From contig NZ_AP031322.1 of the NCBI RefSeq assembly GCF_041154675.1, forward strand, positions 1 through 64,000: a stretch of DNA of 64,000 nucleotides, given 5' to 3'. The DNA is from Sulfurisphaera javensis. Lineage in GTDB: Archaea; Thermoproteota; Thermoprotei_A; Sulfolobales; Sulfolobaceae. A model generated the notes under the pieces. The model did not search any database. It saw only the letters and a program-made list of their open reading frames with translations, and was not told where the DNA came from. Positions 8,065 to 32,768 of this stretch are shown here, piece by piece. The first letter of the stretch is position 1. Each line of letters starts with the position of its first letter. A program made the translations under genes and the position numbers.

Positions 8065-10517
8065 CTCTTTCTCAGCAACGATCTTACCTTCAACTTTTTT
8101 GCCATCACAAACTATCTCCTTTACTTTCTTTCCATTGACTTCAATTTCTTCAACCTCAATTTTTCCTTCGATTAGCTGAATTCTCAATTCTTTTCCCGTG
8201 AAAATGGCCTTTCCCCAGAAGTCCGGTAAAAGTATTATCCATTCAATTTCATTAACCGGATCAAATGATAATTTTTTCCCATCAAATCTTATTCCAAAAT
8301 ATGCTGGAATTATCAGAAGAGAAGATAAAGGTCTGGAATAGTGTGCTCCCCATTCCCAATGGTTCCAGAAATTGCCAGCTAAAGCATATCTATCATATAC
8401 TTCTTTAAGAACTTTCTTAGCTTCATCTATCATCTTTTCGTAAATTAAATGAGAAGCTAAGTAGAACTCTACACCACTCCATGGAGTATCTTGCTGAATG
8501 CTTGCCTTAATCTTTAAAGGATTCTCATATTCTCTTCCAAAAGGTCTATAATTATCTGGATAAGCACCATTAATTGTCCCCTCTCCTTCCTTAAGATTAT
8601 ATCTTATTATGGAGTTTAAGACTTTCTTAACAGTTTCCTTATCTAATAGATTATCATTAAGAAGAGTCAGATAGAACTCTCCAAGGAGTTGTGAAGCATT
8701 TGAAGCTTTATCTCTAAACCCAGAAACTGGATCGTACCAATTATCAAAATACTCTCCGTTCCATAAAAGTTCTTTATAGAGATATAATAAGTCTTTGACA
8801 TCATAACCTAATAACTTTAATGCAACTATTCCCAAAAATGACGTAAATGAGGAAATGCCTATGTTAGTCCAATCATCAAATGTGTTTACACTCATTGGCA
8901 AGGACTCCATATTTACGATTGAACTAATAAACCACGGGTTATTAAATAACCAAGAATTTTCATCAATTTTTAAGTAATTTTGAATTTGCCAGACATATTC
9001 ATGACCAGCAGGAAGTCTACTGTAAATTAAGCCTTTATATGAGTGAGTTCTTAGTACACTATTCATTGCTTCTTTAGCTATTGGTTCTAAAGTTTTTTTT
9101 TAAACACTTCATCCCTAGTGTAGGTCGAAACATAAGCCCACATTAATACAAACTCCGGATTTAGATCATTTCTGCCATATTCATCAACAATTCCTCTAGT
9201 TATGAAGTGCGGTATTCTTCCTTTAGGATCTTTTCCAGTCTCCCTCACAACCTCTTTAACGGTTTTTAACAACTTCTCGTAAGAAGAAAGAATTGAAGGA
9301 TCTTTACTTAGTTTTTCAACATATTTCTCCTTATTTTCTGGAATAGTCAATGAATATAAAATATAATAGGGAGAACTATCAGACAGTATATTTTCAGAAG
9401 CTTTTATTAAGATGTTTTTAGCTAATGAGGGAAAAAGTGAAGTTAATACTGGCATGAAGTAAGTTATTACATCAATTGTGTTAAACGCACCATTTACTGG
9501 GCCATCAGTATAAGGATGTTCCCCAACTCTCCTTTCGTCTGAAGCATTATAATATCCTTCCCATATGTAAAAGTCACCTTCCTTTGATAACCATGTTGCT
9601 TTTTGTAAAGTAGTTAATTGGGAACCAGCTAAATCAGCAATCCATTCCTCAACCCCTTTAGGGTGATAAAGTAAATCATGAAAAGTTTCTGTTTGCCTCT
9701 TTAGATAATCGTAGTTCTCCTCAACGTAATTAATTACATCAATGCAATTAGAGAAGTAATTCTCATAATAATGACCTATTTTCTTACCCCTAAAGTTCAA
9801 ATGATTTTGGAAGTACCAGGCTAAAATAAATTTATTCCCTTCTGTAGTGATAATTCCCCATTTTTCACCCTCATTTCCAGAAATGTAACCTTTCTCTCTG
9901 AGCTCATTCCACTCTTTATAAGACGGGAAACTGTTTAACTTGGCAAAAATTGGTTTTTCAGCCTTAATACAAAGATTTCCATTATATCTAGGGTCTTTAG
10001 GGTCTGTTTCGCCAGAGAAATACAAAACATCTCCCTTAAATTCAATTCTTCCATTTTCGAATGGATTCTTAATTCCAATAATGTAAGTAGCTCTGGTGTC
10101 ATACTCAAATATTGCAACTGGCAATGATGAGTTTTTTAGGTCATGAGGAATGAAAGGAGAGAAAGCCTCAAGCTTTATTTCAAAATCATCTTTAAAAGTT
10201 AAGTAAGCTATTGGTGGTTCTCCTACATATTCTATTTCTTTAACTGGTCTTACCCATGGGGCTGTATAAGGACTTGCACCATAATAGTAATCATAAGCTT
10301 GAAGAATTCTAACCTTTCCTTGATATTTAATTGCAGTAAAGAAATCGTATTGAGTTAAATAATACGTTTTCCTTATGTCTAATCTCTCTGTAAAACCGCC
10401 ATTATTAAAGATTGTCCAGTCATAAAGTCTTCCGTCTGCCCTTATTTCTATTGAACCAGTACCTAAACCTCCTAATACTACTCCAGAGTCTAGTGAATAA
10501 GAATATTTATATTTCAT
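8044..10517 (-). CDS. GH116 glycosidase split by a -1 frameshift at an A9 run
   Basis: Two frames together make one GH116 (GBA2-like beta-glucosidase/xylosidase) enzyme. The first (10517-9087, 476 codons) holds the N-terminal beta domain and the predicted nucleophile Glu320 (YIWEGYY). The second (open from before 9066 to 8044, 340 codons from its first ATG) holds the acid/base segment NTFDDW. They meet at nine consecutive A (9093-9101 on the reported strand as T9), read TTT-AAA-AAA-AAA-CTT-TAG. A -1 slip there gives about 824 residues and restores the family sequence (KKTLEPIAKEAMNS). Neither half alone has both catalytic residues. S. solfataricus alpha-fucosidase is a known case of -1 frameshifting at an A-rich heptamer; sequencing error or a true null allele remain possible. 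Confidence 0.85.
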
Positions 10518-10768
10518 GATATGAGATACAAAATACTCATTAATTTAATTTACGATAATGAAGTGACAATTTCTTTTTTCTGATAAAATATAAGGAATTA
10601 ACGAAATTTATCGTAATGTATATAGAAAGTTAAAAGATTTCTTGAAAGATCTACTGATGAAATAAGTTAAGAGGAGGAGGGAAGTTAAAAAAGTACAAGT
10701 GAAGACATCATATAAAGAGAAATGACAAAGATATACTCTTTGTAAAACCAAAAAGCCATAAGTTTTAT

Positions 10769-24885: not shown

Positions 24886-25122
24886 GTGGGAAGAACACAA
24901 CCATCATTCACTAAAGCAGTTGATTCACAATTAGAGACTTTAAGTAGAATAGCCTCACGTTTACACTCTTATCAATTTGAAAAGTTATTGGAAAAAGCTA
25001 AAGAGAAAGTTAGATATCTTCAGAGTGCTTCCTATGACGAGTTCATTAATCCTTACGATTTAGTAATTCTAGCTATGATTATTACACTAGCTGAGGAGTG
25101 TGAGAAAAATGTACGTTCTTGA
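24886..25122 (+). CDS. Small conserved protein of the dpo2 operon
   Basis: Helical 78-residue protein starting at GTG 24886. No known motif; it has the look of a helical adaptor (QLETLSRIASRLHSYQFEKLLEKAK shown only in part). It matches in size and position the small gene that precedes dpo2 in Saccharolobus. Its stop overlaps the polymerase start region by 14-23 bases, so the two are coupled. Probably a polymerase partner or regulator; function unproven. Confidence 0.8.
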   Translation: MGRTQPSFTKAVDSQLETLSRIASRLHSYQFEKLLEKAKEKVRYLQSASYDEFINPYDLVILAMIITLAEECEKNVRS

Positions 25123-26764
25123 TGCCTATCCAGAAAGGGGAGGAGTTAGAATACTGCTAAACGACTTTGAAAAGGAGTTCATAAAAACAACTTTCCCAGT
25201 TTATGCGATTACAGATAATCCAGATATCGTACTTCAACATCCAGAAGTTAAATATTACGAGGAAGAAAAGTGGAGAACTTTAGATGGTAAAGAAGTTATA
25301 TTATACCGTTTTGAGGTTGAGAGTTTTAACGCTTATTATTACATGAGGAAAAGGTTAAACGTAGTTAATGAATTACCAACTGTCCTTTCACAAACACTTT
25401 ATAAGCTAGGAATTAGACCATTCTCTGAACTTTATGACACTTCTTATACACTCAATTTCCCTAAAATTAAAGTTGCTACTATTCGTCATTTAAGGTGGTA
25501 TGATGGTTGTGATAATTGTTATGAAGTTGAAATTAACGGTAAAGTAGAGAGGTATTACTCATTCCCAGATATTGAGGCAGATGTTATTGAGTGTTATGGC
25601 TTTCCTTGTAACAAAGTAAAGGCTCAAGTTAAGATTGATGGAAGTAAGAAAAGGTCACCAGTAGGAATTCGTGGATTAATTGAATGGTCTTACATAACTA
25701 GAACTCCTTTACATGAAATTGCATATGAAACTATTGGAAAAGCTTTGACAACTAATGAGGCTTGGGTTGCTCTTCAGAGGAAGATTATAATTCCTAAAGT
25801 AGTGCCTAGAGTGGAGAAACTGAGAAGATTGGAAGACATAATGATTGCTGACAAAGGTGGGCTTGTTTTATTCCCTAAACTTGGCTGTTTTAATAACGTT
25901 TATCAAGTTGACTTTAAGTCAATGTATCCCTCTCTCATTATAAAATACAATATTTCAGCAGAAACAATTGATGCTTGTGATGATATAAAGACTGAGCTTC
26001 ATTCAATTTGTCTTAAGGAAAAGGGAATAGTACCAGAAGCATTAAGTTGGTTAGTTAAGAGGAAAGAAGATTTAAAGAAGGTTGATGAGGAAAGGGCTGA
26101 AGCAATAAAATGGATTTTAGTTGCGTCTTTTGGTTATTTAGGCTATAGGAATTCAAGGTTTGGAAAGATTGAGGCTTATGAAATGGTAACATACTTTGCG
26201 AGAAAAACGCTAAGGAAAGCAATTGAAATAGCTGAGAAATTAGGTTATGAAGTACTTCACGGAATAATTGATTCTTTAGTTATTCATGGTGATGGAATTA
26301 AGTTCGTGGAAGAAGTTGAAAAAGAAACTGGATTACGTTTAGATTACAAAAGACTTGATTGGATAATATTTACTAAGACTAGGAAGGACACCCCTTATCC
26401 AATGAGATATATAGGGAGAAGGGAAGACGGAGAAATTATTGCTAAAGGATTAATAAGATCTAATATGCCAAATTTAGTCAAGGATTTCCTTTCCTCCTTT
26501 CTAGATATTTTATCTGAGAAGAGAAATTGCGAGGAAGTAAAGAATTCTCGCGGAGAAATAAAAAAGGTGTATGAGGAGTTTGAAAGAAAACTATTTTATG
26601 GTGAACCAAAGGATTACATTATTTGGATAAAGGACAAGCCTTATGTAAGAGGTTTAAAAGGATTTTATGAGGCTGAAGATAGTTTGAAAGATAAGGATGT
26701 TTTTTATTATAAGTCATATTTAGATAGATTATATAATGACGTAATGGAGATGATAGCATGTTAA
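25100..26764 (+). CDS. dpo2: B-family DNA polymerase PolB2 (Dpo2)
   Basis: Crenarchaeal PolB2 (554 aa from GTG 25100; the ATG at 25109 is the likelier start). It lacks the N-terminal exonuclease half of replicative PolB1. Motif A is intact (VDFKSMYPSL, Asp271), motif B is diverged (KWILVASFGYLGYR instead of KxxxNSxYG), and motif C reads GIIDSLVIHG (Asp391), with the second catalytic Asp of DTD replaced. This divergence is known for the PolB2 group, once called inactivated, yet S. islandicus Dpo2 is implicated in damage tolerance. It sits between its two usual partners in a probable damage-induced operon. Confidence 0.93.
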   Translation: MRKMYVLDAYPERGGVRILLNDFEKEFIKTTFPVYAITDNPDIVLQHPEVKYYEEEKWRTLDGKEVILYRFEVESFNAYYYMRKRLNVVNELPTVLSQTLYKLGIRPFSELYDTSYTLNFPKIKVATIRHLRWYDGCDNCYEVEINGKVERYYSFPDIEADVIECYGFPCNKVKAQVKIDGSKKRSPVGIRGLIEWSYITRTPLHEIAYETIGKALTTNEAWVALQRKIIIPKVVPRVEKLRRLEDIMIADKGGLVLFPKLGCFNNVYQVDFKSMYPSLIIKYNISAETIDACDDIKTELHSICLKEKGIVPEALSWLVKRKEDLKKVDEERAEAIKWILVASFGYLGYRNSRFGKIEAYEMVTYFARKTLRKAIEIAEKLGYEVLHGIIDSLVIHGDGIKFVEEVEKETGLRLDYKRLDWIIFTKTRKDTPYPMRYIGRREDGEIIAKGLIRSNMPNLVKDFLSSFLDILSEKRNCEEVKNSRGEIKKVYEEFERKLFYGEPKDYIIWIKDKPYVRGLKGFYEAEDSLKDKDVFYYKSYLDRLYNDVMEMIAC

Positions 26765-27336
26765 GGACTGGTTTTTCTTACCTAGATAAACTTATTCAAA
26801 AAGACGAGATTGTTGAGTTTTATTCAGAGGATGATGATTTGCTTAAGAGCTTTTATCATAGGGTTATAGCTTTATCCTCACCAATACATGTAGTTATAGT
26901 TTCTGAAAGAGGAGGTTTAGATCCTTACCTAGTTAAGAGATTCCAGGATGTTTTTGATATTCATGAGGAAGTTTATATAAGGAGAGCTTTTAAGGCTGAA
27001 GATGTTGTTCCGACAATTGAAAGTATGGGTGATGAGGATTTGATAATTATTGACCCTTATCATCATAAGAAGTTATATACTGAAATTGCATCAGCTATAA
27101 AGAAAAGAAAGGGAAGAACTTTCACGTTCAGTTTTACTAATAGAGAGTTACATGGTTCAATATTTGGCTTGCATATTGCTCATTCTTTAATAAAGCTAGA
27201 AAAAGGGAGAAGGGGGTTTAGATTCGTGATTAAGAAAAGTGTGATTATTAGAGAAATCGAAATACCAGAAAGTATATGGTCTCTTTATGGTAAAGTTGAT
27301 GAGGATGAGGGGCTATTAAAGTGGGTAATACAGTAA
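26758..27336 (+). CDS. RadA-like protein of the dpo2 operon, lacking Walker A
   Basis: Protein of 192 residues overlapping the polymerase stop by 7 bases. The layout (TGFSYLDKLI start, a Walker B-like DLIIIDPYHH strand, FTFSFTNRELHGSIFGLHIAHSLIKL) resembles the RecA/RadA core. There is no GxxxxGK[ST], so it should not bind ATP in the standard way. It equals the third gene of the Saccharolobus dpo2 operon in position. Likely an accessory factor for damage synthesis; inferred from context. Confidence 0.75.
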   Translation: MLRTGFSYLDKLIQKDEIVEFYSEDDDLLKSFYHRVIALSSPIHVVIVSERGGLDPYLVKRFQDVFDIHEEVYIRRAFKAEDVVPTIESMGDEDLIIIDPYHHKKLYTEIASAIKKRKGRTFTFSFTNRELHGSIFGLHIAHSLIKLEKGRRGFRFVIKKSVIIREIEIPESIWSLYGKVDEDEGLLKWVIQ

Positions 27337-28792: not shown

Positions 28793-30439
28793 TCAACTAC
28801 TGTTGTTTTTATTAGATTTGCTTGTCACTTCTTCCTTATAAAATTCTTTACCTTCTTTTAAGAAGTCGAAAATAGAGACTAACATTACCCTTTCATCTTT
28901 TTTCACTGGTATTAGGACAGACAATTCAATTCCTTGCTGCTTGGCTGACTTTATTCTTTGAATTACACCCTCCAAATCTAATAAAACTGCTAAAGGCTCC
29001 ATTACTGCATAAATTCTCTTTGTTATTGATGAATATTTATTCATTAAGTCAAATAACTCATCACTTGGCAATACTCCAATACTTGCCTTAGCATCATAAA
29101 TTGTATTAGTTGACCTTACGTAAATATCTGGTATTTTACCGGAAAAGATTACACTTTCAACTTCTATGTTATTAGGATCTATTTTCTCATTTTTAATTAA
29201 ATGTCTAATAGTAACAGCTTTCAATTTTCTGTGAAGTTCACTTTCATTACTTCCAGCTGTTCTTTCAGCTGGAACGTCTAAATTAATATAATTCTTTCTT
29301 AGCCAAATCCAACTTTCGTTTAATATTTTCTCATAGTTTGTTCTAACGTTTGCCAAACCGTCATAATAACTATTTTTGATGGTGAAGCCTGAAGCTAAAT
29401 ATGTTAACACTTTAATTTCTTCTAACGTAAACTTTTCTTCAATAATAGTTGATGGTTGACCCTGAATGTACATTGAATATTTATCACGCAAGCATTTAGG
29501 CATGATAACTATAGTAAATTTATTTCCTACAAAACTTATAATACTTGATTTGAAGACTTCTTCAAATTCTTTGTCATTTACTAATTCACATAAATCGTTA
29601 GATAAAACATATATCCCATCTTTGCTTATTGCATTTTGTAGACTGTATCTGTAATTAACCTTAGAAATTTTGAGAGGATTAAAAGAATATCCCCTAATTT
29701 CCGCAAATCTAGTTACAATTGCTGAAAGCGATTCTTCAATTTTTGGATGCTGGAGTTCATCATAAACTATTACAATAAACTTACCATTAAGTTGATTAAC
29801 AAATCCCAAGAAGTTATTCAAATAGAAATAAAGATCTCCATTAATTTCACGCTTTGGTTGTAGTGATTGTACAGAGTTAGATGATGGAGGAGGTGATGAA
29901 ACATTTAAATTTACAAGTATCTCACTTTCAATTTGTAAAGGAATTTGAGGAGGCGTAAAGAATTTAGGCTCTGGAAGTTGAAATTCCTTTATTTCAGTGT
30001 TAAATGAGAATTTAGGAATTGTTGGATCAATTTCCAGGGTAACTGATGAAGGTAACAGAAATATGGGTTCTGGGACTTCTAAGGGTTTAACTTCAATTTG
30101 AGTAACCTTAGGAATTTCACTATTTATATCTAAGGTAATTAATGAAGGTGACTTAAACTCTGGTTCTACTACATCGATGTGAATTTCTTTGCTAGTTGTT
30201 ATGATTTTCTTCCTCTCTTCTTTTACAGTATTTTCCTCCTTCTTTACTTCTTGCTTTTCTACACTACGAGATTCATTTAACAATGATGATGAACTAGTGA
30301 TGTTAACGTTATATGACTGCATCTTATTCTGTCTATTTTGTGTCGTTTCCTTCTCTTTTTCTGATTCCTCTTCACATCTTGTGTAAAAGATTTCTTCGTC
30401 TTCCTTCTCTTCATTCTCTTTCTCTTCCATGTTTATCAC
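28793..30439 (-). CDS. PD-(D/E)XK nuclease-like protein with long disordered N-terminus
   Basis: 548 residues. Residues 1-75 are Glu/Lys-rich and low in order. Residues about 85-185 are proline-rich with four to five spaced PEF/PEP-type repeats (VEPEFKSPSLITLDI, VPEPIFLLPSSVTLEI, LPEPKFFTPPQIPLQI). The middle is alpha/beta. The C-terminus has a nuclease-like core: Glu401 (SELHRKL), then GKIPDIYV (Asp438) and IYDAKAS (Asp449, Lys451), fitting the E-(D)-x-(D/E)xK pattern of restriction-type nucleases. It is the last of four leftward genes and is preceded 13 bases earlier by the 137-residue gene. No named family is evident. Assignment of the fold is by motif only. Confidence 0.7.
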   Translation of the reverse strand: MINMEEKENEEKEDEEIFYTRCEEESEKEKETTQNRQNKMQSYNVNITSSSSLLNESRSVEKQEVKKEENTVKEERKKIITTSKEIHIDVVEPEFKSPSLITLDINSEIPKVTQIEVKPLEVPEPIFLLPSSVTLEIDPTIPKFSFNTEIKEFQLPEPKFFTPPQIPLQIESEILVNLNVSSPPPSSNSVQSLQPKREINGDLYFYLNNFLGFVNQLNGKFIVIVYDELQHPKIEESLSAIVTRFAEIRGYSFNPLKISKVNYRYSLQNAISKDGIYVLSNDLCELVNDKEFEEVFKSSIISFVGNKFTIVIMPKCLRDKYSMYIQGQPSTIIEEKFTLEEIKVLTYLASGFTIKNSYYDGLANVRTNYEKILNESWIWLRKNYINLDVPAERTAGSNESELHRKLKAVTIRHLIKNEKIDPNNIEVESVIFSGKIPDIYVRSTNTIYDAKASIGVLPSDELFDLMNKYSSITKRIYAVMEPLAVLLDLEGVIQRIKSAKQQGIELSVLIPVKKDERVMLVSIFDFLKEGKEFYKEEVTSKSNKNNSS

Positions 30440-30452
30440 CGCGGATTATCAC

Positions 30453-30866
30453 TTAGTAATTTGGGTGGAGCTTCCATAAAGTCTCAATTAGTGATTTAGA
30501 TATAACTGCTCCAGATCTCCATTTGATTATTTCCCATAAACTTTCTTTTGCGGATAACCCGTTTTTACCTACGCTGATGTCCAAAGACGGATCAAGGAAT
30601 AAAATATAATTTACTAACTTAAACAATTCTGACACAGTGTATTCTCTCTTATAAAAGCTTTCGACGTAAGTATTTCTATTCGTATTTATGTATATACGGA
30701 ACATGTCGACAGAAGCATTTAGATTAGAATCTATATGCACATATTTGTCATATTTTTCGCAAGCATCCATTATATCATCTATCGTTAAGTCTATTTGCTT
30801 TAAAAACCTATTTATAAATACTTTAAAGTCATTAACTACTTGTTCCTTAGGAACGAAAAATACCAT
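30453..30866 (-). CDS. Hypothetical protein, nuclease operon
   Basis: 137-residue soluble, largely helical protein; I recognise no domain. Its start overlaps the end of the 110-residue gene by 31 bases and it is followed closely by the PD-(D/E)XK gene, so it belongs to one transcription unit. Conserved-looking features cannot be judged from one sequence. Confidence 0.65.
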   Translation of the reverse strand: MVFFVPKEQVVNDFKVFINRFLKQIDLTIDDIMDACEKYDKYVHIDSNLNASVDMFRIYINTNRNTYVESFYKREYTVSELFKLVNYILFLDPSLDISVGKNGLSAKESLWEIIKWRSGAVISKSLIETLWKLHPNY

Positions 30867-31168
30867 AAGAGTTTGAATAATATGTCAGCAATTCCATTTT
30901 TATTGTGAAAATAAATTGCTATTCTTTTATCAGAGGGAACAATTTCCATTCTCCTAATATCCAAGAATTTTTGTAAAAGCACGTTTTCGAATAGTTCCTT
31001 ATGTGCGCTCATTAACATTGGTCCTAAAACATGCCTGGTTGTCATTATAACGTAAGAATAATAATTATACATTGGTAAAATTGAAATTACACTTTTCTCA
31101 AGGTCTTGTAGTGCGTTTTTAAAATCGTCGACAGAAGAAATACCTCTCTCTACTTTAGGTATTTCCAT
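30836..31168 (-). CDS. Hypothetical protein, nuclease operon
   Basis: 110-residue helical protein with no recognisable motif. It starts 18 bases after the end of the 132-residue gene and overlaps the next gene by 31 bases. Base composition is like its neighbours. Function unknown; position suggests a subunit of the same system. Confidence 0.6.
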   Translation of the reverse strand: MEIPKVERGISSVDDFKNALQDLEKSVISILPMYNYYSYVIMTTRHVLGPMLMSAHKELFENVLLQKFLDIRRMEIVPSDKRIAIYFHNKNGIADILFKLLWYFSFLRNK

Positions 31169-31186
31169 GTCAAAGTTTCGAAATAA

Positions 31187-31585
31187 TCATTCTAAATCGA
31201 TCGCTAAAGATCTAATTAAATGAATAGGGGTTTTACTCATAATCCAATTATTAATTAGCGCTTGTCTATAGTCATGTCCTATTTCGTATAAGTTTCTTAG
31301 TTGAACAGGATCGACACCAACACCATATAAATCCTTAATAAGTTTTGCTAAACTGTTTTCAACATATAAACCTTTCTCATTAATCCCTCCAAGGAAATAA
31401 GGTAATAATTCTTGATTAATCTCACCTAGTTTTGGATGCTTTTGAACCTCTTGTATTAAGTAATTGCCAAAATCATCTAGGGTCTTCAAATTTACGTAAA
31501 TTGGGACAACGCAATTTTCAATATACTCTCTCCACTTATCTTCAGTTAAAGGTTGTTTACCTTGATAATTACACTTACTTTGCAT
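31187..31585 (-). CDS. Hypothetical protein, first gene of the nuclease operon
   Basis: 132-residue soluble, mostly helical protein (MQSKCNYQGKQPLTEDKW...). Two N-terminal-half cysteines do not form an obvious zinc site. It is the first gene of the four-gene leftward group. A TATA-like TTTATAAAA lies about 25-35 bases upstream (31600-31608), which supports a promoter here. No family recognised. Confidence 0.65.
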   Translation of the reverse strand: MQSKCNYQGKQPLTEDKWREYIENCVVPIYVNLKTLDDFGNYLIQEVQKHPKLGEINQELLPYFLGGINEKGLYVENSLAKLIKDLYGVGVDPVQLRNLYEIGHDYRQALINNWIMSKTPIHLIRSLAIDLE

Positions 31586-31771: not shown

Positions 31772-32338
31772 TCACAAAGACTCATCTAAAACCAGTATAT
31801 TTGACTTGATATGATTTAATATAAACTCTACTTTTTGCTCAAGTTCATCAGAGAGTTTTATGATTTCCTCATCTGGTATCTTATTTTCTTCGCCAGTGGA
31901 TAAGTATACTTTTCGTATCTCACTTATCTTTTTTGCCTCTTTATCTATTTCATCATCTTTAGGGATAATTTCCTTACCCTCTATTCGATTACTATAGTAG
32001 GTGTAAAAGAAGAGAAAGAAACGATATTTAAATTCATGCTCTTTGTGGAGATTTTTAAGGTCATTATTTATTCTCTTTATAATTTCGTGAAATGCTAAAA
32101 TGCCATACTTCTCAATTTCTTCACTTAACAGTCTTATTGCACAATTTCTCAACAGCGATATATAGATATATTTAGATAATTCTTCTATTGCAGACCATAA
32201 ATTTATTATTATAACTTTTCTATCATATCGAGACTTGAGTGATTTATAAATATTGAAGTAATCTTTAGCATAATCTAATTCATTTTTGAAATACTCATAG
32301 CACTCTAACCGGATATCCGTAATAATTAGTATACTCAC
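31772..32338 (-). CDS. HEPN-domain protein, AbiV-like
   Basis: 188-residue helical protein. The layout resembles AbiV-type HEPN proteins: an N-terminal helix with YAKDYFN, a second helix NLWSAIEELSKYIYISLL (AbiV: ALEELGK), a middle K/F-rich stretch, and EIRKVYLSTG...IPDEEI (AbiV: the LRERALYVDF...SPSE region). AbiV is a lactococcal abortive-infection protein; HEPN proteins are often ribonuclease toxins. No clear Rx4-6H motif is visible, so catalysis is uncertain. It starts at GTG 32338, 44 bases inside the preceding gene. Confidence 0.6.
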   Translation of the reverse strand: MSILIITDIRLECYEYFKNELDYAKDYFNIYKSLKSRYDRKVIIINLWSAIEELSKYIYISLLRNCAIRLLSEEIEKYGILAFHEIIKRINNDLKNLHKEHEFKYRFFLFFYTYYSNRIEGKEIIPKDDEIDKEAKKISEIRKVYLSTGEENKIPDEEIIKLSDELEQKVEFILNHIKSNILVLDESL

Positions 32339-32768
32339 AAAGGATTTTCTCTACTCTTTCAATATTTCTTCCTATAACATAACCTAACATTGACCCTATT
32401 GCTAAAGATATTGCAGTAGATATTAATTGAGACTCATTAGTATTATCCTTACTAGCAGCGTAACCAGCACCACCACCAACTACGGCACCACCAACTGCAC
32501 CCATTTCTTCAAAAGTGACCGTTTCCACGATCTGAAAAGAAATCCATATAACATGTAATTCTTCAACTATATTCATTACAGTATTTACAATGTTATTGCA
32601 AATCTCCTTAGAGTTAGGTAAAGAATTTGCGTTTACACGTAAGGAAATCATAATCCTTTCAGACTTTAGTTCTTTGATAATTGGAGTGTCATCTAGTTTT
32701 TTTAAGCATCTATTAGCAACTTCCTTTACCTCATCTGTTGAGAGTTTTTTCTTTTTTGCTTCAATCAC
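32295..32768 (-). CDS. Glycine-zipper membrane protein paired with the HEPN gene
   Basis: 157-residue protein. A soluble N-terminal alpha/beta part (1-88) is followed by a glycine-rich hydrophobic hairpin: GAVGGAVVGGGAGYAAS, a short polar turn, then ISLAIGSMLGYVIGR. This is a glycine-zipper membrane hairpin like those of pore-forming or membrane-inserting proteins. The 44-base overlap with the HEPN gene implies coupled synthesis. It may be the membrane-acting or sensing partner; no characterised relative is recognised. Confidence 0.65.
   Translation of the reverse strand: MIEAKKKKLSTDEVKEVANRCLKKLDDTPIIKELKSERIMISLRVNANSLPNSKEICNNIVNTVMNIVEELHVIWISFQIVETVTFEEMGAVGGAVVGGGAGYAASKDNTNESQLISTAISLAIGSMLGYVIGRNIERVEKILCEYTNYYGYPVRVL

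Follow-up and report, generated by a model that had tools for sequence, protein, structure and literature searches.

According to a 2026 survey, RM, CRISPR-Cas and argonautes aside, known defence systems are generally of low prevalence in Thermoproteota, a large group of archaea most of which are heat-loving (PMC12988326). In Sulfolobales, a two-gene cassette of the SiRe_2374/SiRe_2373 type, composed of a wHTH protein and an AAA ATPase fused to a PD-DExK nuclease, is reported from most members of the order and has been proposed to act against viruses (PMC11065993). This cassette is the nearest published system that we found for the locus described here, which lies in a 64,000-nucleotide stretch of the Sulfurisphaera javensis genome, hereafter called the window. 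The locus carries two genes, A and D, whose pairing extends to many archaeal families. As a conserved and unnamed nuclease pair present in about 10% of Thermoproteota genomes, it is a candidate for part of the defence gap in this phylum.

Organization of the locus

The original prediction had described a four-gene operon in which three small helical proteins of 132, 110 and 137 aa preceded a 548-aa nuclease-like protein. Each of the four ORFs can be read on the minus strand of the window where it had been placed (Table 1), but the three small ones are pieces of a single gene, split by a TGA codon and a frameshift. They match, in order, consecutive parts of one intact 361-aa protein from a relative (L029), with identities of 52, 51 and 35%, and gene A of the window is therefore disrupted. 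A profile of A matches window positions 30830-31576, with stops inside, and in most Sulfolobaceae relatives A is intact, one ORF before D coding for some 360-390 aa. The real unit is almost certainly made of two genes, A then D, the first of which is disrupted, and not of four. More generally, what look like small subunits in raw sequence may turn out to be fragments of a single broken gene.

Inspection of the sequence before ORF2 and ORF3 revealed no TATA-like site comparable to that found upstream of A. Because A is broken, the module is probably non-functional in this genome, though D is open; a sequencing error may lie behind either the TGA or the frameshift in A. A is a mostly helical partner protein, for which AlphaFold, run on one intact sequence alone, returned no usable model (pLDDT 35).

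Table 1. Features of the A-D locus in the window
Feature	Position	Strand	Basis
Gene A, disrupted (partner gene of about 360 aa in three ORFs)	30453..31585	-	Collinear alignment to intact L029 protein and profile match
ORF1, 132 aa, piece of gene A	31187-31585	-	Aligns to L029 protein residues 3-128
ORF2, 110 aa, piece of gene A	30836-31168	-	Aligns to L029 protein residues 139-238
ORF3, 137 aa, piece of gene A	30453-30866	-	Aligns to L029 protein residues 241-359
In-frame TGA splitting ORF1 from ORF2 of A	31187..31189	-	Same frame on both sides; relatives read through
Frame change within A, ORF2 to ORF3, at a T run	30855..30880	-	Consecutive protein parts in different frames
TATA-box-like TTTATAAA, about 25 nt upstream of A start codon	31607..31614	-	By inspection
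Gene D, open, 548 aa: N-terminal repeats, AAA-like domain, C-terminal PD-(D/E)XK-like domain	28793..30439	-	
D residues 86-200: low-complexity stretch of tandem motifs that contain Pro and are diverged versions of LxFPxPPxVxxSSLDxxx	29840..30184	-	Self-similarity test
D residues 206-340: alpha/beta domain, AAA+-like, without Walker A	29420..29824	-	Two-sequence AlphaFold model; VIA Z at most 8.8, near background
D residues 395-535: PD-(D/E)XK-like nuclease domain (E399, H403, K407, E428, D438, D449, K451)	28835..29257	-	

The nuclease domain of D

Judging from its conserved residues, the C-terminal domain of D is very probably a PD-(D/E)XK nuclease. Residues E399, H403, K407, E428, P437, D438, D449 and K451 are invariant in 13 Sulfolobaceae D proteins, and E399, H403, K407, E428 and D438 are kept in 38-39 of the 39 homologues collected across the phylum, the motif II Asp (D438) in all 39 and the motif I Glu (E399) in 38. 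The E-D-DxK core originally proposed stands, within Sulfolobaceae, for D438, D449 and K451; its Glu has to be moved, as the conserved residue is 399, not 401, and E399 is probably the catalytic Glu.

Motif III takes two forms: D proteins of the Sulfolobaceae type have DxK, those of the wider type ExE, and position 451 is accordingly Lys in 17 and Glu in 21 of the 39 homologues. Conservation of D449 and K451 among homologues, on which the nuclease assignment had been staked, is on its face lost in the wider family, yet the lysine reappears at position 461. The swap is reciprocal, with K451 and E461 in 16 rows of the alignment and E451 and K/R461 in 21; it holds in 37 of 38 readable rows (the exception is L045, and one further row is unreadable), these rows forming clades, so that the independent events are few. 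In the PD-(D/E)XK superfamily, the lysine of motif III has been described as moving to the helix that comes next (PMC1913061), and the D family fits this superfamily, whose motif III reads (D/E)xK or its migrated-lysine variant. Since the lysine reappears at 461, the nuclease reading of D survives the ExE variant.

The window copy of D keeps the whole nuclease core. At position 481 it carries Glu, where almost all D proteins of the Sulfolobaceae type have Arg; this may point to relaxed constraint. At the structural level, the nuclease part weakly matches EcoT38I (Z 7.9, close to the background of the tool; rmsd 3.5 over 121 residues) and SfsA (Foldseek probability 0.91, E 0.08). These model-based matches give weak backing to what the sequence suggests, and sequence searches of the PDB found nothing. 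The multisubunit nuclease first envisaged thus retains its nuclease core, which motif conservation, the K451/E461 swap and the weak likeness to EcoT38I and SfsA all favour, and loses its four subunits.

N-terminal repeats and middle domain of D

The N-terminus of D is charged and of low complexity, in agreement with the Pro-repeat region announced for the 548-aa protein: repeat self-similarity reaches 67, above all 200 shuffles, which score at most 58. Several D proteins contain 3-4 copies of an LxFPxPPxVxxSSLDxxx-like motif. When a profile was built from 14 copies, it recovered 3-4 copies in L031, L037 and L038, none of which had contributed to the seed, and no protein with at least two copies among 968 other neighbours or in shuffled D sequences. 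These tandem motifs may serve to dock A.

Residues 196-548 were modelled with AlphaFold from two sequences, at low to medium confidence (mean pLDDT 64.6, pTM 0.64). In this model, the middle domain resembles AAA+ domains at VIA Z scores that are near the background of the tool, and a viral fold library returned generic AAA matches only. A Walker A motif or P-loop is absent from the D alignment.

Distribution and pairing of A and D

Homologues of D occur in 20 of 118 relatives. Among 398 Thermoproteota genomes, D was detected in 35 with a Sulfolobaceae-weighted profile and in 45 with a broader profile, whose weakest matches are doubtful, and A was detected in 37. The distribution of the pair is patchy, amounting to about a tenth of the genomes of the phylum. 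A and D are found together in 30 of the 42 genomes that hold either of them (35 with D, 37 with A; Fisher p = 2.5e-33, an optimistic value because the genomes are related), and over 31 pairs the distances among A proteins track those among D proteins (Mantel r = 0.67, 0/5000 permutations). In nearly every intact locus, D lies 3' of A on the same strand, the two genes overlapping by up to 61 nt or standing up to 27 nt apart. That the pairing holds in many archaeal families is our strongest result. The relatives that carry the pair include genomes that we take to be those of S. acidocaldarius and M. sedula; if the antiviral reading is true, the system is carried by genetically tractable Sulfolobus strains.

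D-like proteins of 458-508 aa were also seen in L120, L127 and L128 (family f8), where A is missing and the surroundings, with a membrane transport protein next to D, are conserved. They are perhaps a solo lineage of D.

The original prediction of an undescribed system is borne out insofar as A-D is absent from the family libraries searched: Pfam, NCBIfam, PHROGs and PADLOC families gave nothing convincing for either protein, and the models of PADLOC-DB 2.0.0 gave no match. A search of the open-access literature found no paper or library entry on A-D, which is weak evidence of novelty, and nothing was found in the literature under candidate S. acidocaldarius locus tags, inferred from neighbouring mal genes. 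Scans of genome collections yielded a single relative.

Genomic neighbourhood

The neighbours of A-D include a pAgo gene (L046), HerA (L126), a type I S subunit (L045) and Csx1-type CARF proteins, as well as PIN, HEPN and PaREP1 proteins and transposases. Of the PADLOC models, 143 had a match among A-D neighbours and 50 among random genes, but there is redundancy between models, and since a CRISPR locus fell within the random control regions we claim no enrichment. This defence-gene context is suggestive only; in the presumed S. acidocaldarius genome, the pair sits among metabolic genes. No methylase is present in the A-D operon of the window, as had been noted at the outset for restriction methylases, and none recurs beside D, a single N6_N4_Mtase being found among 100 A-D neighbours.

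Several other arrangements were observed around these loci. In L046 (3378-12537), the pAgo gene that flanks A-D is on the opposite strand, and D is directly followed by the gene for a HATPase/NO VEIN-type protein of 958 aa. Genes with an HExxH, metallopeptidase-like motif lie directly beside A-D in L114 (3975-5186 and 18775-19650), L126 (6999-7883) and L129 (2550-3437); they were considered as a third component and rejected, being limited to few genomes of one family. In the window itself, the A-D genes are adjoined at 31772-32768 (minus strand) by genes for a 157-aa protein with a weak glycine-zipper match and then a 188-aa protein. The two recur next to each other, away from A-D, in other Sulfolobaceae (G004 contig C27, G007 and G010), and this conserved adjacency marks them as a two-gene unit separate from A-D. 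On the other side, at 25100-27336 (plus strand), a family B DNA polymerase of 554 aa is followed by a 192-aa protein without Pfam match; the polymerase block is conserved in relatives at other positions.

Decay, selection and exchange

The S. javensis genome holds a second copy of D (G000:C1 2456697-2457629), which is far more decayed and is adjoined by a piece of the start of A at 2457638-2457696; the two together correspond to L004 about 9700-10700. Several other Sulfolobaceae copies of A-D are fragments, and in the presumed M. sedula genome D is open and A is split. Among close pairs of sequences, dN/dS is below 1 for both A and D, with A of L034/L035 near 0.8, and most of these pairs are under purifying selection.

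The genes that flank A-D in the window are found at unrelated places in relatives, and the flanks of the module are not conserved. The window copy of A is closest to the L029 copy, from a different genus, then to those of L034 and L035, and not to copies of its own genus. These sequence comparisons suggest that A-D has been exchanged across genus lines and often lost.

Possible functions of the A-D pair

We put at about even the chance that A-D is a two-component conflict or defence nuclease, of which S. javensis holds a decayed copy. In such a system, D would be the effector, its C-terminal domain cutting nucleic acid; its middle AAA-like domain, devoid of a P-loop, would act as a scaffold and not as a motor; and the tandem motifs at its N-terminus would dock A or another partner. 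A, as a sensor or regulator, would keep D inactive or direct it up to the arrival of a trigger, for instance invading DNA, and the whole would be horizontally exchanged and often lost. The pairing of A and D, their co-divergence and conservation, their decay and the pattern of active-site residues are established by the comparisons above; cleavage, docking, control by A and the defence role itself are what we infer. The defence role, first proposed together with the nuclease, is plausible. We hold more tentatively, at somewhat under even, the fuller reading of an unrecognised archaeal antiviral or anti-plasmid two-component nuclease, with a scaffold lacking a P-loop and tandem docking motifs, that is exchanged among Thermoproteota.

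A toxin-antitoxin or abortive-infection pair, with D as toxic nuclease and A as antitoxin, kept by addiction or by the killing of infected cells, would also account for two adjacent, co-diverging genes that are patchy and decaying, and a published Sulfolobales pair follows a similar logic (PMC11065993). We find it unlikely: D is open while A is broken, both here and in the presumed M. sedula genome, and a free toxic D would be hard to tolerate; moreover, A is large and has no match to an antitoxin-type DNA-binding domain. Purifying selection in most close pairs, and the occurrence of the same nuclease fold in housekeeping families, would suit a host nuclease pair working in DNA repair, recombination or DNA uptake, unrelated to defence. 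A presence limited to about a tenth of genomes, absence from close relatives, frequent decay and the lack of conserved neighbours speak against this role, which we rate as slightly less likely still.

The module could, finally, belong to an integrated plasmid or virus, as cargo or for its maintenance, in line with its patchy and horizontal spread, the transposases among its neighbours and the remote D-like C-terminus that a Halorussus plasmid encodes. However, neither window D nor an intact A has a relative among 72,556 plasmids and 50,697 phages, scans of viral contigs confirmed no A-D relatives, and no replication or partition genes recur beside A-D among the first 25 neighbour families listed; the plasmid link raised in the original prediction is not supported by these searches, and we consider such an origin improbable. 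As for a true four-gene operon encoding a multisubunit nuclease, the four open frames in order behind one promoter-like site would allow it, but three of them are collinear parts of a protein that is intact in most relatives, which makes it extremely unlikely.

Comparison with known systems

Like the SiRe_2374/2373-type pair, A-D is a two-gene cassette of Sulfolobales whose larger protein joins an AAA-type domain to a C-terminal PD-(D/E)XK domain. The two differ in both components. A, with its 360-390 aa or so, has no wHTH match, and D has an N-terminal repeat region, no Walker A and no match to PF01637; in a PF01637 search of genome G017, the D locus was not among the matches. A-D is also patchy whereas the SiRe pair is reported to be widespread, a separation drawn from the published description of the SiRe pair.

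Other resemblances concern D alone. The CoiA-like family (PF06054), which also belongs to the PD-(D/E)XK nucleases, has a similar ExxxHxxxK stretch before a metal-binding Asp, which we treat as a lead only. A PF06054 search of 8 genomes holding D found nothing at E <= 10, and motif III, DxK or ExE in D, is EXQ in CoiA (PMC1913061); for these two reasons, membership of D in the CoiA family was rejected. EcoT38I, a type II restriction enzyme, and SfsA show a weak fold similarity to the modelled D nuclease domain, with no sequence relationship detected.

A more distant counterpart is found on the Halorussus pelagicus plasmid NZ_CP035121.1, where a 1403-aa protein ends in a D-like C-terminus with ES..H...K, PDI and EIETLYGTG motifs (E 6e-54 with the full D profile). 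Unlike D, this nuclease-like domain is fused to a long N-terminal part. It belongs to a three-gene stretch (L165:302-9128) in which a 629-aa protein and then a 792-aa protein with PLD-like motifs, recognized by inspection, come before it, and in which no A was detected; the stretch may be another conflict system built on the same nuclease. Both the nuclease superfamily and the logic of a two-gene nuclease are already known.
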